From Gelidibacter mesophilus DSM 14095 (GTDB lineage: Bacteria > Bacteroidota > Bacteroidia > Flavobacteriales > Flavobacteriaceae): a DNA stretch of 64,000 nucleotides. Positions 6,202 through 10,102 of the stretch are shown piece by piece. The position numbers and the translations under genes were made by a program. The stretch covers positions 1 to 64,000 of the forward strand of contig NZ_AUHD01000010.1 in the NCBI RefSeq assembly GCF_000423005.1. Direction: 5' to 3'. How positions within the stretch are numbered: the first letter of the stretch is position 1; every line of letters starts with the position of its first letter. The notes beneath the pieces are model-generated. The model saw only the letters and a list, made by a program, of their open reading frames with translations. It was not told the DNA's origin and ran no database searches.

Positions 6202-6234
6202 TGTAATACATTGGATATTAACATGTACTTTTGC
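6202..6234 (+). promoter_or_regulatory. Bacteroidetes-type promoter for the J-domain gene
   Basis: TACTTTTG at 6227-6234 is an exact TAnnTTTG -7 box, followed by CGCCC, a common start region in this group. An upstream TTG at 6202-6204 stands 22 bases before it as the possible -33 element. The start codon follows about 15 bases downstream of the expected transcription start. Confidence 0.55.
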
Positions 6235-6254
6235 GCCCTCAAATAAAATTTGGT

Positions 6255-6707
6255 ATGAAGCGCATAAATGAATACAAGAAACTCTTTGGAGTGGAAAACG
6301 AAGTCGAATTAAAGACTTTAAAAAAATCTTACCGTGATTTAGTGAAGGAATGGCATCCTGATAAATTCCAAAATGGAGACGCTTTACAAGAAGAAGCTGA
6401 AATACAAAGCCGAAGAATCATTGATGGGTATCATTTTTTGGTGAGCATTGCACCCGAAACTATTGCGTCCAATTTGGCTGAATATACCGAAACAATAACC
6501 AATTCAGGAATCGCTGATTACCAACACAAAGGGTTATTGATGGAAATCACCTTTATGGACGGGTCAACTTATGAATATTTTGGCGTGACCAAACAAATCT
6601 ATATTAAAATGATCAATAGCGATAAAGTGAACCGTTTTGCAAAACGGAACATCTATCCAAACTATACTTATAGAAAATCGAAAAGAATTTTAGAATCCGC
6701 TCAGTAG
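6255..6707 (+). CDS. J-domain protein with C-terminal KTSC domain
   Basis: A 150-residue protein. Residues 1-60 are a DnaJ J-domain with the essential HPD tripeptide at 34-36 (KEWHPDKFQ), which stimulates the ATPase of Hsp70 (DnaK). Residues about 95-145 match the KTSC domain (GLLMEITFMDGSTYEYFGV...). There is no Gly/Phe region and no zinc-finger domain, so this is not general DnaJ but a J-protein with a specialised tail. KTSC domains also occur in lysyl-tRNA synthetase fusions and are thought to bind nucleic acid. I chose ATG 6255 rather than the in-frame TTG at 6231, because the TTG overlaps the promoter -7 box. Confidence 0.8.
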   Translation: MKRINEYKKLFGVENEVELKTLKKSYRDLVKEWHPDKFQNGDALQEEAEIQSRRIIDGYHFLVSIAPETIASNLAEYTETITNSGIADYQHKGLLMEITFMDGSTYEYFGVTKQIYIKMINSDKVNRFAKRNIYPNYTYRKSKRILESAQ

Positions 6708-6758
6708 AAAGTGGGAGATGGATTGCAAATAATTAGCGCTACACAACAACTCATTAGC

Positions 6759-6800
6759 AAAGGGAACACGTTATTTTATACGTATTCCCTTTGTTTTTTT
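6759..6800 (+). terminator. Rho-independent terminator after the J-domain gene
   Basis: AAAGGGAACACGT (6759-6771) pairs with ACGTATTCCCTTT (6780-6792), with a single C-A mismatch, followed by GTTTTTTT. The lower stem is almost the same as that of the terminator at 8707-8747. Confidence 0.85.
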
Positions 6801-8479: not shown

Positions 8480-8574
8480 ACATAGAGAAAAAGCATTATT
8501 GCATCATACTTCTTTCTGATCTCAATTTTGAGGTAGTTAGGTTGGAAATAATTATGTTAAATTTTAATTCAACA

Positions 8575-8605
8575 TTTGAAGCAATCTAAAAATTTTGTAT
8601 ATTTA
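8575..8605 (+). promoter_or_regulatory. Promoter of the TPP riboswitch transcript
   Basis: TTTG at 8575-8578 and TATATTTA at 8598-8605 are separated by 19 bases, the spacing of Bacteroidetes -33/-7 promoters; the -7 box matches TAnnTTTG except its last base. Transcription would start about 8611, exactly at the left edge of the riboswitch P1 stem. Confidence 0.55.
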
Positions 8606-8610
8606 TAAAA

Positions 8611-8704
8611 CAATCATATCGGGGTGCTTAATTCATTTAAAAATAGCTGAGAATATACCCGTTGAACTTCAAAAGGGATAACCTCTATAGAAGGAATATG
8701 ATTT
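8611..8704 (+). ncRNA. TPP (THI-box) riboswitch
   Basis: The conserved thiamine pyrophosphate aptamer elements occur in order. They are GGGGTGC at 8621-8627, GCTGAGA at 8646-8652, ACCCGTTGAAC from about 8657, GGATAACC in the P5 loop, and GAAGGAA at the end. Helix P1 is formed by AATCATAT (8612-8619) and ATATGATT, and P4 by CTTC and GAAG. The aptamer senses TPP and normally controls thiamine synthesis or uptake genes. Here it is followed immediately by a strong terminator and then by more than 300 bases without a thiamine gene. No thiC, thiS or transporter gene is present, so its target is unclear. Confidence 0.88.
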
Positions 8705-8706
8705 GC

Positions 8707-8747
8707 AAAGGGAACAATGTTTTAAACACTTGTTCCCTTTGTTTATT
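8707..8747 (+). terminator. Terminator / expression platform of the TPP riboswitch
   Basis: AAAGGGAACAA (8707-8717) and TTGTTCCCTTT (8730-8740) form a perfect 11-base-pair stem followed by GTTTATT. It starts two bases after P1, as expected for transcriptional control by the aptamer. No alternative anti-terminator is obvious, so it may terminate constitutively. Confidence 0.8.
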
Positions 8748-9076
8748 ATAAAAGGTCTAGCTCACAACATTTTATTTTCAACAAATCATTCTTTCTGTAA
8801 AAACGAAATCCATTTAGTGCGTTCCCATTCAAATTCATTTTAATAACAACGATATTCAATTCTTTTAAAAAAGCGGGCGTCAAGACAACATGTACCAAAA
8901 AATACGCTTAACTTCGTGAGTGGAATATTTTTATCGGCTTACTTATGGAGCTTTGGATACGTTTTGTTTTAAAGGAAAAGCGTAAGCCAAGTGCGAGCCT
9001 TTTTCTTGTTTCACCTTCAAGAAATTGAGCTTTAACAAAAATGGTTGGCTGAAGATTTAAAGACAGATTCATAATA
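8748..9076. other. Region downstream of the riboswitch without a recognisable gene
   Basis: About 330 bases between the riboswitch terminator and the threonine aldolase start. The longest plus-strand frame starting with ATG encodes 27 residues (from about 8945) and has no coding character. A minus-strand frame overlaps the aldolase start and is not convincing. This could be the scar of a lost thiamine-related gene. Confidence 0.45.
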
Positions 9077-10102
9077 ATGACAATAGATTTAAGAAGTGAT
9101 ACGCTCACAAAACCTACAAAAGCAATGCGCAATGCAATGCTGCAGGCTGAAGTTGGGGATGACGTTTATAAAGAAGATCCATCGGTAAACCTACTTGAGG
9201 ATAAACTATCCACGATGTTTGGGATGGATGCGGCCTTATTTTTTCCTACCGGTAGTATGGCCAATCAGGCGGCCATTAAACTGCACACCCAACCTGGAGA
9301 GCAGTTAATAGCTGATAAATGGACACATGTGTATAATTTTGAAGGTGGAGGCGCTTCGTTCAACAGCGGCGTTTCTTGTAAACTGGTGGATGGGCACCGA
9401 GGGATGATCACGGCCGCACAGGTTGAAGAAAATATCAATCCTCCAGATTTTTACCACAGTCCGTTAACGAGCTTGGTTTGTTTAGAAAACACAACGAATA
9501 TGGGCGGTGGTGCTTGCTATGATTTTTCAGAAATTCAAAAGATTCGTGCTGTTTGTGATACGCATCACCTAGGATTTCATTTGGATGGTGCGCGTATCTG
9601 GAATGCTTTGGTGGCGCAAAACCAAGATCCAAAAATCTATGGGGAGATTTTCGATACCATTTCAGTTTGCCTAAGCAAAGGACTTGGCACGCCAATGGGC
9701 AGTGTGTTGCTAGGAAAAAAGAAGTTGATGGATAAGGCCATGCGCGTACGTAAAGTTTTGGGTGGTGGCATGCGACAAATAGGATTTATGGCGGCAACCG
9801 GCATCTATGCGCTCGATAATCATATCGATAGATTGCAGGAAGACCATAAAAGAGCTTCAGAAATTGCCAAAGTACTTTCAGAGCAATCTTATGTCAAAAT
9901 GGTAGAGCCTACAGAAACCAACATTGTTATTTTTTACCTGAAGACACCTATTTCCGAAAAGAAATTCATGGCTGACTTACTTCAAAGAAACATTAAAATC
10001 AGTACGATGGGTCAAGGTAAATTACGCATCGTGACCCATTTGGATTATACTGAGGAGAGGCATCATCAATTTTTAGATGCTTTAAAAAAATTAAACTACT
10101 AA
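9077..10102 (+). CDS. ltaE: Low-specificity L-threonine aldolase
   Basis: A 341-residue PLP-dependent enzyme of the threonine aldolase / beta-eliminating lyase family, which splits threonine into glycine and acetaldehyde. Recognisable signatures are the start IDLRSDTLTKPT, EVGDDVYKEDP, the cofactor-binding FFPTGSMANQAA, the aspartate in HLDGARIWNA, and the PLP lysine in SVCLSKGLGTPMGSVL. The length is that of the family. The next gene (nicotinate phosphoribosyltransferase) begins 11 bases after the stop, so the two are probably co-transcribed. It acts in the cytoplasm in glycine supply or threonine breakdown. The upstream riboswitch is about 370 bases away and is not an obvious regulator of this enzyme. 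Confidence 0.92.
   Translation: MTIDLRSDTLTKPTKAMRNAMLQAEVGDDVYKEDPSVNLLEDKLSTMFGMDAALFFPTGSMANQAAIKLHTQPGEQLIADKWTHVYNFEGGGASFNSGVSCKLVDGHRGMITAAQVEENINPPDFYHSPLTSLVCLENTTNMGGGACYDFSEIQKIRAVCDTHHLGFHLDGARIWNALVAQNQDPKIYGEIFDTISVCLSKGLGTPMGSVLLGKKKLMDKAMRVRKVLGGGMRQIGFMAATGIYALDNHIDRLQEDHKRASEIAKVLSEQSYVKMVEPTETNIVIFYLKTPISEKKFMADLLQRNIKISTMGQGKLRIVTHLDYTEERHHQFLDALKKLNY

Follow-up and report, generated by a model that had tools for sequence, protein, structure and literature searches.

Does a TPP riboswitch that has no thiamine gene behind it still have a function, and if so, which one? TPP riboswitches, RNA sensors of vitamin B1, are normally placed before thiamine genes. The question is raised by a locus of Gelidibacter mesophilus DSM 14095 located in the window analyzed here, namely, the whole stretch of 64,000 nucleotides at the start of contig NZ_AUHD01000010.1. 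The original prediction, made from the letters of this stretch, described a complete TPP aptamer with promoter and terminator in front of a threonine aldolase gene and left three readings: a relic whose target gene had been deleted, a terminated leader with a function of its own (a TPP-dependent small RNA), or an enzyme under unexpected control.

The aptamer in the window

The covariance check proposed with the original prediction gave a significant match to the Rfam TPP model (RF00059; Infernal, + strand, 43.7 bits, E 2.8e-7, model positions 1-105) that is nevertheless below the Rfam gathering score of 54.3 bits. Because the window aptamer scores under this threshold, a default Rfam scan of the window returned zero entries. 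It is the single RF00059 match in its own genome (Table 1).

The P1 stem, predicted to be perfect, is indeed an 8-bp stem without mismatches when read from the letters (8612-8619 with 8696-8703), and the segment 8604-8750 has a folding z-score of −3.9. The claim that all core aptamer motifs are present held for one side of the aptamer: the pyrimidine half is intact, but the pyrophosphate-side signature ACCTGAT ... CG[TA]AGG is absent from the window copy, the arm of which is ACTTCAAAAGGGATAACCTCTATAGAAGGA. As also predicted, a noncoding gap follows, and the open reading frame (ORF) that starts at 9077, 335 nt past the hairpin, encodes a PF01212 lyase, consistent with threonine aldolase (ltaE).

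TABLE 1 Features of the locus in window coordinates; the 41 copies are the set described in the text
Feature	Position	Strand	Basis or remark
TGTTAAA box 5' of the promoter, conserved spacing	8555-8561	+	TTAAA counts in 41 copies
−7 promoter box TATATTTA, Bacteroidota type	8598-8605	+	Comparison of 41 copies
Whole small RNA gene	8608-8747	+	Bounds from covariance models; full-length model matches
TPP-riboswitch-derived aptamer	8610-8712	+	RF00059, 43.7 bits; R1, 130.8 bits, and R2, 120 bits, both from alignments that include the window copy; covariation in 41 copies
P2 G-run	8621-8624	+	Pairs with ACCC, 8657-8660
CUGAGA	8647-8652	+	Pyrimidine half, intact
P4	8667-8670/8690-8693	+	
P5	about 8674-8677/8683-8686	+	
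Conserved hairpin CAAAGGGAACAA/TTGTTCCCTTTG	8706-8741	+	Read as intrinsic terminator of the small RNA

Spread and structure of the proposed small RNA gene

The RF00059 search of nine Gelidibacter genomes revealed three kinds of element: canonical elements linked to thiC, elements linked to TonB receptors, and elements followed by a hairpin (thiC and receptor identities were assigned by Pfam on one or two Gelidibacter examples of each). In the third kind, CAAAGGGAA...TTCCCTTTG stands directly 3' of the aptamer, as it does in the window. A covariance model of aptamer plus hairpin (R1), built from seven Gelidibacter copies, found one full copy per genome in all nine, with 117.9 to 147.4 bits, scores that are circular for the seven copies because R1 was built from them. 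The nine include G004 and G005, for which RF00059 gave zero matches at E 0.001.

Across 397 sampled Flavobacteriaceae genomes, R1 detected at least 36 copies at 63 bits or more, in at least 34 genomes and at least 24 genera; no copy at this score was found in 363 of the 397 genomes, with eight candidates scored per genome. The genome counts are lower bounds, since searches of more than 40 genomes used stricter filters and were limited to these eight candidates. The 63-bit cut coincides with a gap in the scores, which continue at 59.8 bits and below, and none of the 14 loci just under it (L052-L065) has the hairpin. The 36 copies of the family sample and those of five Gelidibacter genomes outside it make up the 41-copy set used below. 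Two genomes carry two divergent copies each (L036/L046 in G216 and L043/L047 in G272).

An exact DNA pattern run on a named genome collection returned 53 stretches, of which 49 have both the aptamer and the partner strand of the hairpin; among the other four, three are chance matches and the one from Breznakiella is a canonical TPP aptamer that lacks the hairpin. The non-members L086, L107, L112, and L119 were excluded from the gene-context count of this set. Named carriers are Gelidibacter, Aequorivita, Altibacter, Arenibacter, Formosa, Christiangramia, Robertkochia, Subsaxibacter, Marinirhabdus, Confluentibacter, Allomuricauda, Luteirhabdus, Pukyongia, Pricia, and Thermobacterium, together with records named to higher rank only. 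A second covariance model (R2), built from the 41 sequences, found at least 5 of 395 genomes across the order at 90 bits or more and at least 2 of 395 across the class at E 1e-11, all of them Flavobacteriaceae and with the G. mesophilus genome included each time. Another 60 genomes of the order match at E 1e-7, the best one outside the family at 64.5 bits, and in ten of these loci (L184-L193, this best one included) the hairpin is found in none.

The structure of the RNA is under selection. In the 41-copy alignment, which was fitted to the model and therefore favors the structure, 90.1% of the structure cells are paired, compared with 78.5% after shuffling and 42 to 52% with slid partners. Changes on both sides were observed for 29 of 36 pairs, all eight pairs of P1 included, and for 7 of the 12 pairs of the hairpin stem. 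RNAalifold, run on the same alignment, recovered P1, P2, P3, P5, and the hairpin but not P4 as consensus helices, and 20 of its 27 pairs covary. The helices P1 to P5 are present in the copies, P4 and P5 being short and the outer pairs of P3 forming in a minority. Energy-only folding gave mean pair probabilities of 0.27 for P2, 0.24 for P3, 0.70 for P1, and 0.90 for the hairpin; so weak a P2 and P3 would suit an arm that is stabilized by a ligand.

In five Gelidibacter genomes that share a 5'-nucleotidase-like neighbor gene, mean identity is 0.43 upstream, 0.77 in the promoter, 0.83 in the aptamer, 0.90 in the hairpin, and 0.50 downstream, with 0.78 for a coding stretch in the same comparison. 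The conserved block is the footprint of a gene that runs from promoter to terminator, and not a relic; judged by sequence only, this promoter and terminator are conserved independently of the flanking genes. A decaying remnant of a thiamine operon would agree with the G. mesophilus genome, which has no match to thiC at E 1e-50 and none to the two thiamine pyrophosphokinase families tried (PF04265 and PF04263). However, promoter, aptamer, and hairpin are conserved together, with compensatory changes, and the same block occurs in genomes that do have thiC, such as G006 and G008. The relic of a deleted target gene is thus refuted by conservation and covariation, and we regard it as next to inconceivable. 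No strongly conserved single-stranded stretch was seen outside the aptamer loops and junctions, and therefore no base-pairing seed is evident.

The promoter of the original prediction was supported by the comparison. A TAnnTT[TA] box lies 19 to 25 nt 5' of the P2 G-run in 40 of the 41 copies, a position that would place the transcription start at P1, at about 8608-8612 in the window. Farther upstream, 27 of the 41 copies have a TTAAA that begins 41 to 43 nt before the −7 box. The window has a single occurrence of GTTAAA-N34-38-TATNTTTA, where 0.10 would be expected. The TGTTAAA-type box is a possible activator site or extended promoter of the small RNA (sRNA).

The hairpin, which was also matched by a hairpin pattern search, has a perfect stem of 12 bp in the window (8706-8717 with 8730-8741). 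It was not reported by a consensus terminator scan of the window, because its loop exceeds the limit of the scan and its U tail (TTTATTATAA) is weak. It is called a terminator here because T-rich tails follow it in most copies (by eye) and because it ends 2 to 27 nt from the stop codon of a convergent gene in 19 of 41 copies. The strict hairpin is unlikely to be a generic terminator motif of these genomes: each of the eight other Gelidibacter genomes has a single CAAAGGGAA/TTCCCTTTG form, at the sRNA, and G. mesophilus has two. This second hairpin lies at 6758-6793 in the window, 50 nt past a KTSC/DnaJ-like ORF (6231-6707), and no TPP-like aptamer was found before it; a comparable second hairpin is present in G005 (about L068 866-902). 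A short peptide was also considered, since in the window copy an ATG with 17 codons is readable from the 3' side of P1, and was dropped because copies with AATACAAC at this place have no ATG (by eye).

Nascent-RNA pair probabilities averaged over the 41 copies revealed no conserved antiterminator. In the energy model, the 5' arm of the hairpin pairs with upstream sequence at a mean of only 0.13 per nt and the best conserved alternative pair reaches 0.07, without sign of an expression platform that would exclude the aptamer. In these folds termination thus seems not to depend on the aptamer, and riboswitch-controlled termination was set aside. In some copies CAAAGGG is able to pair with the P2 strand CCC-N-UUG (by eye).

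Genes behind the proposed small RNA

No constant gene follows the sRNA. With a simple ORF caller (100 amino acids [aa] or more), the next gene is convergent in 27 of the 41 copies and in sense in 14; the sense genes differ and lie 81 nt or more from the hairpin, and with the limit at 60 aa one sense ORF lies at 16 nt (68 aa, L050). The overlapping named set of 49 copies has 32 convergent genes, 15 sense genes, and 2 copies without a gene. TonB-linked TPP elements (L053 excluded) have a sense gene next in 25 of 25 cases and a convergent one in none, while the canonical elements (L057, at the same place as L182, excluded from the arm and context counts) have 17 sense and 1 convergent of 18, or 16 and 2 with ORFs down to 60 aa.

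Within Gelidibacter, the gene behind the sRNA is pncB in G002 to G005 (Pfam run on G002), starting 81 to 91 nt past the hairpin. It has no Pfam family in G006 to G008 (Pfam run on the G008 copy) and is a convergent MotA/ExbB-family gene in G001; ltaE is found there in G. mesophilus only among the nine genomes. A Pfam scan of 18 next genes, taken from one locus each and 14 of them convergent, assigned a family to 16 of these: PIG-L, release factor, GNAT, zinc dehydrogenase, RecG, NAD-binding, Asp/Glu racemase, histidine enzyme, cytochrome c assembly, chloride channel, efflux, universal stress, tRNA-binding, fatty acid hydroxylase, NAPRTase, and MotA/ExbB. A thiamine gene is not among them.

These contexts bear on two further explanations. 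A cis-acting riboswitch for the next gene, be it ltaE or pncB, would be compatible with the sense orientation of that gene in G. mesophilus and G002 to G005 and with the start of pncB 81 to 91 nt past the hairpin. It is at odds with the 27 convergent neighbors, with sense genes that differ among lineages, and with the lack of a conserved antiterminator, and is highly improbable. Riboswitch control of threonine aldolase in particular is very unlikely and was rejected, as the gene behind the sRNA varies between genomes. Alternatively, the aptamer could control an antisense read-through transcript directed against the convergent gene, like AspocR as portrayed in the accessible part of PMC8079631. 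The 19 copies in which the convergent gene ends close to the hairpin would fit, but the scanned convergent genes come from families unrelated to each other (release factor, Asp/Glu racemase, RecG, histidine enzyme, chloride channel, efflux protein, and others), 14 copies have a sense gene next, and here too the conserved antiterminator is missing; this explanation is scarcely credible.

The gap between the hairpin and ltaE contains a noncoding element of ∼42 nt, CACTCACGAAGTTAA..GTATTTTT (window 8898-8939, − strand), that occurs once in the G. mesophilus genome and is absent from the other Gelidibacter genomes searched. A similar element lies upstream of a gene taken by eye as prfB in Aequorivita loci with the same sRNA. 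The element looks like a promoter and is possibly the trace of an older convergent prfB.

Of the 397 family genomes, 82 have a thiC match, among them 3 of the 34 sRNA carriers; this is no firm anti-correlation (Fisher p 0.08 for carriers versus other genomes). thiC is also present in G002, outside that sample. Most carriers searched have a second TPP-like element. Pairing of the CAAAGGG arm with CCCUUUG of canonical thiC leaders was considered and dropped, as thiC is so rare (3 of 34) among the carriers. Contig C4 of G008 has two thiC genes, each with its own canonical TPP element before it (L002 and L008).

The putative ligand pocket and comparison with known systems

The accessible part of PMC3764141 lists among the highly conserved residues of the TPP riboswitch U39-A43 of J3-2, U59/A80 of P4, G60 of J4-5, and C77/G78 of J5-4, where G60, C77, and G78 touch one of the metal ions coordinating the pyrophosphate. 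In the sRNA the J3-2 pyrimidine pocket is retained, with CTGAGA kept in 39 of 41 copies, the window copy included, and TAAT of L5 also in 39. The pyrophosphate pocket is altered: with a column-to-residue mapping that is our own, the positions aligned to G60, C77, and G78 have G in 12, C in 19, and G in 4 of 41 copies, respectively. CG stands at C77/G78 in one copy, and the window copy (L019) has C, T, and A at the three positions by alignment. The residues aligned to U59 and A80 are kept in 32 and 29 copies.

In nearly all copies the canonical pyrophosphate-contact signature is partly or wholly gone. In the named set the two signature strings occur together in 0 of 49 copies and one of the two in 2 of 49, and the pyrophosphate junctions vary in length and letters from copy to copy, GAA or GAU in J4/5 being retained in L028 and L030-L032. 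Two of the 41 copies have CUGAAA and six are without exact GGGGUGC, so that some copies may bind nothing. By eye, ACCTGA and G78 are kept in all 18 canonical elements of the family, and the 25 TonB-linked elements also miss the canonical signature. With the sRNA and the TonB-linked elements, these bacteria therefore have two variants in which the pyrimidine pocket is intact and the pyrophosphate side has changed. Of the TPP-dependent small RNA in the original prediction, the small RNA part is well supported, the element being present in 9 of 9 Gelidibacter and at least 34 of 397 family genomes; its TPP dependence is unproven, given the changed pyrophosphate pocket.

Two explanations differ in what the RNA would bind. 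The first is an RNA that is a scaffold only, having kept the aptamer fold and lost metabolite binding, and that would work as an ordinary protein-binding or base-pairing sRNA. The drifting pyrophosphate junctions, the hairpin as the most conserved segment, and the scarcity of thiC among carriers are in line with this, but the persistence of CTGAGA and of the L5 loop would be unexpected if helices alone mattered, and we consider it unlikely. The other, an ordinary sensor that binds TPP despite its altered junctions and makes the sRNA TPP dependent, is also unlikely. In its favor are the significant match of the whole element, the 9 of 41 copies that reach the Rfam gathering score, and the residues aligned to U59, A80, and C77, which persist in many copies; against it, G is rare at the positions of G60 and G78, which together with C77 are highly conserved and metal contacting in the known riboswitch (PMC3764141, accessible part).

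The explanation that we regard as probable is a free-standing sRNA gene of ∼130 nt with a TPP-derived aptamer, the product of which would act in trans and have as its ligand a thiamine-family molecule, more likely one without pyrophosphate. That the terminated leader is an sRNA with its own function, as had been suggested, is well supported by the conservation of aptamer and hairpin, mostly with no sense gene behind. The sRNA is presumably made as a discrete transcript. Its own promoter would start transcription just 5' of P1, the RNA would fold into the TPP-riboswitch-derived aptamer with the pyrimidine-sensing arm retained, and the dedicated hairpin would constitutively end transcription, giving an RNA of about 125 to 140 nt. 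Binding of the thiamine-family ligand, for which the pocket points to thiamine or HMP rather than TPP, would then alter the shape, stability, or partner of the sRNA, and the sRNA would in this way regulate an mRNA or a protein in trans. A more specific reading, which we put forward tentatively, is a stand-alone ligand-sensing sRNA, specific to this family of mostly marine bacteria and descended from a TPP riboswitch that lost its cis gene, gained a dedicated promoter and terminator, and now responds to a nonpyrophosphorylated thiamine-family compound.

If this tentative reading is true, it would mean regulation in trans in bacteria that are mostly without thiC and hence must scavenge the vitamin or its pyrimidine. 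Riboswitches are usually defined as cis elements, and the copies described here look like an entire class whose gene is the aptamer itself. With this class one could test whether metabolite-sensing small RNAs exist and, by way of the altered pyrophosphate junctions, how a riboswitch as common as this one might come to bind another ligand. Rfam-based annotation would hide it, labeling 9 of the 41 copies "TPP riboswitch" and missing the rest.

With the TPP riboswitch (RF00059) the sRNA shares the P1-P5 layout, GGGGUGC, CUGAGA, ACCC, and the UAAU loop of P5; it differs in J4/5 and J5/4 beside the pyrophosphate, in having no constant downstream gene, and in its own terminator, which replaces the expression platform. 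According to the accessible part of PMC8079631, SreA and SreB of the Listeria SAM riboswitch are terminated riboswitch RNAs that act in trans, an action that is a proposal for the sRNA. SreA, however, also acts in cis on an operon and terminates in a ligand-dependent manner, whereas the sRNA has no cis gene and apparently constitutive termination. The Listeria B12 riboswitch of Rli55/AspocR, in the same source, is likewise tied to a noncoding transcript instead of an mRNA, but it lies upstream of a longer noncoding RNA and ends its synthesis, whereas here the aptamer is most of the RNA. The trans-acting cases in the literature consulted are side products of cis elements or riboswitches upstream of noncoding RNA. 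The HMP-PP riboswitch (thiS motif; PMC6478431, accessible part) is also linked to a terminator hairpin and senses a thiamine-pathway compound other than TPP, as is proposed here, but its aptamer is much smaller, lies almost wholly within the terminator stem, and is linked to thiamine-precursor genes such as thiS.

Among the reports retrieved on non-cis riboswitches and on TPP elements in Bacteroidetes or Flavobacteriaceae, mostly titles and opening parts of abstracts with subscription journals largely outside, none recognizably describes this sRNA. The study of small RNAs in Flavobacterium psychrophilum (PMC9723704) reports five Rfam cis elements, with a thiamine one among its examples, and makes no mention of such an RNA in its accessible part.

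The 25 TonB-receptor-linked TPP elements, mostly from sRNA-carrying genomes, resemble the sRNA in lacking ACCTGA and CG[TA]AGG while keeping CUGAGA. Unlike the sRNA they are cis elements: in 24 a TonB-dependent receptor gene starts about 37 to 192 nt farther on and one element reaches into the start codon of its receptor gene, both TonB-receptor Pfam domains are present in 25 of 25 receptor ORFs, and the hairpin of the sRNA follows none of the 25 in the stretch read. In Bacteroides thetaiotaomicron, transporter operons linked to TPP elements are unresponsive to thiamine and the biosynthetic operon is responsive, as stated in the accessible part of PMC5613172. The TonB-linked elements share a fused P4-P5 arm without the pyrophosphate-contact CG (L152-L154, L156-L172, L174, L175, L177, and L178), mostly ACCTAGAACAG-GTAATG-CTGTTTAGG or ACCTGGGCAG-GTAATG-CTGCCAAGG, and similar arms were seen by eye in L184, L186, L188, L191, and L193 of the wider order; they may represent a second variant aptamer. 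In L183 and L053 (G194 and G364), the 3' end of a variant TPP-like aptamer runs into a start codon (GGAATTTATTATG and GGAATTTATAATG), which for L183 is that of a TonB-dependent receptor gene (Pfam). These two loci are candidates for a very compact translational switch.
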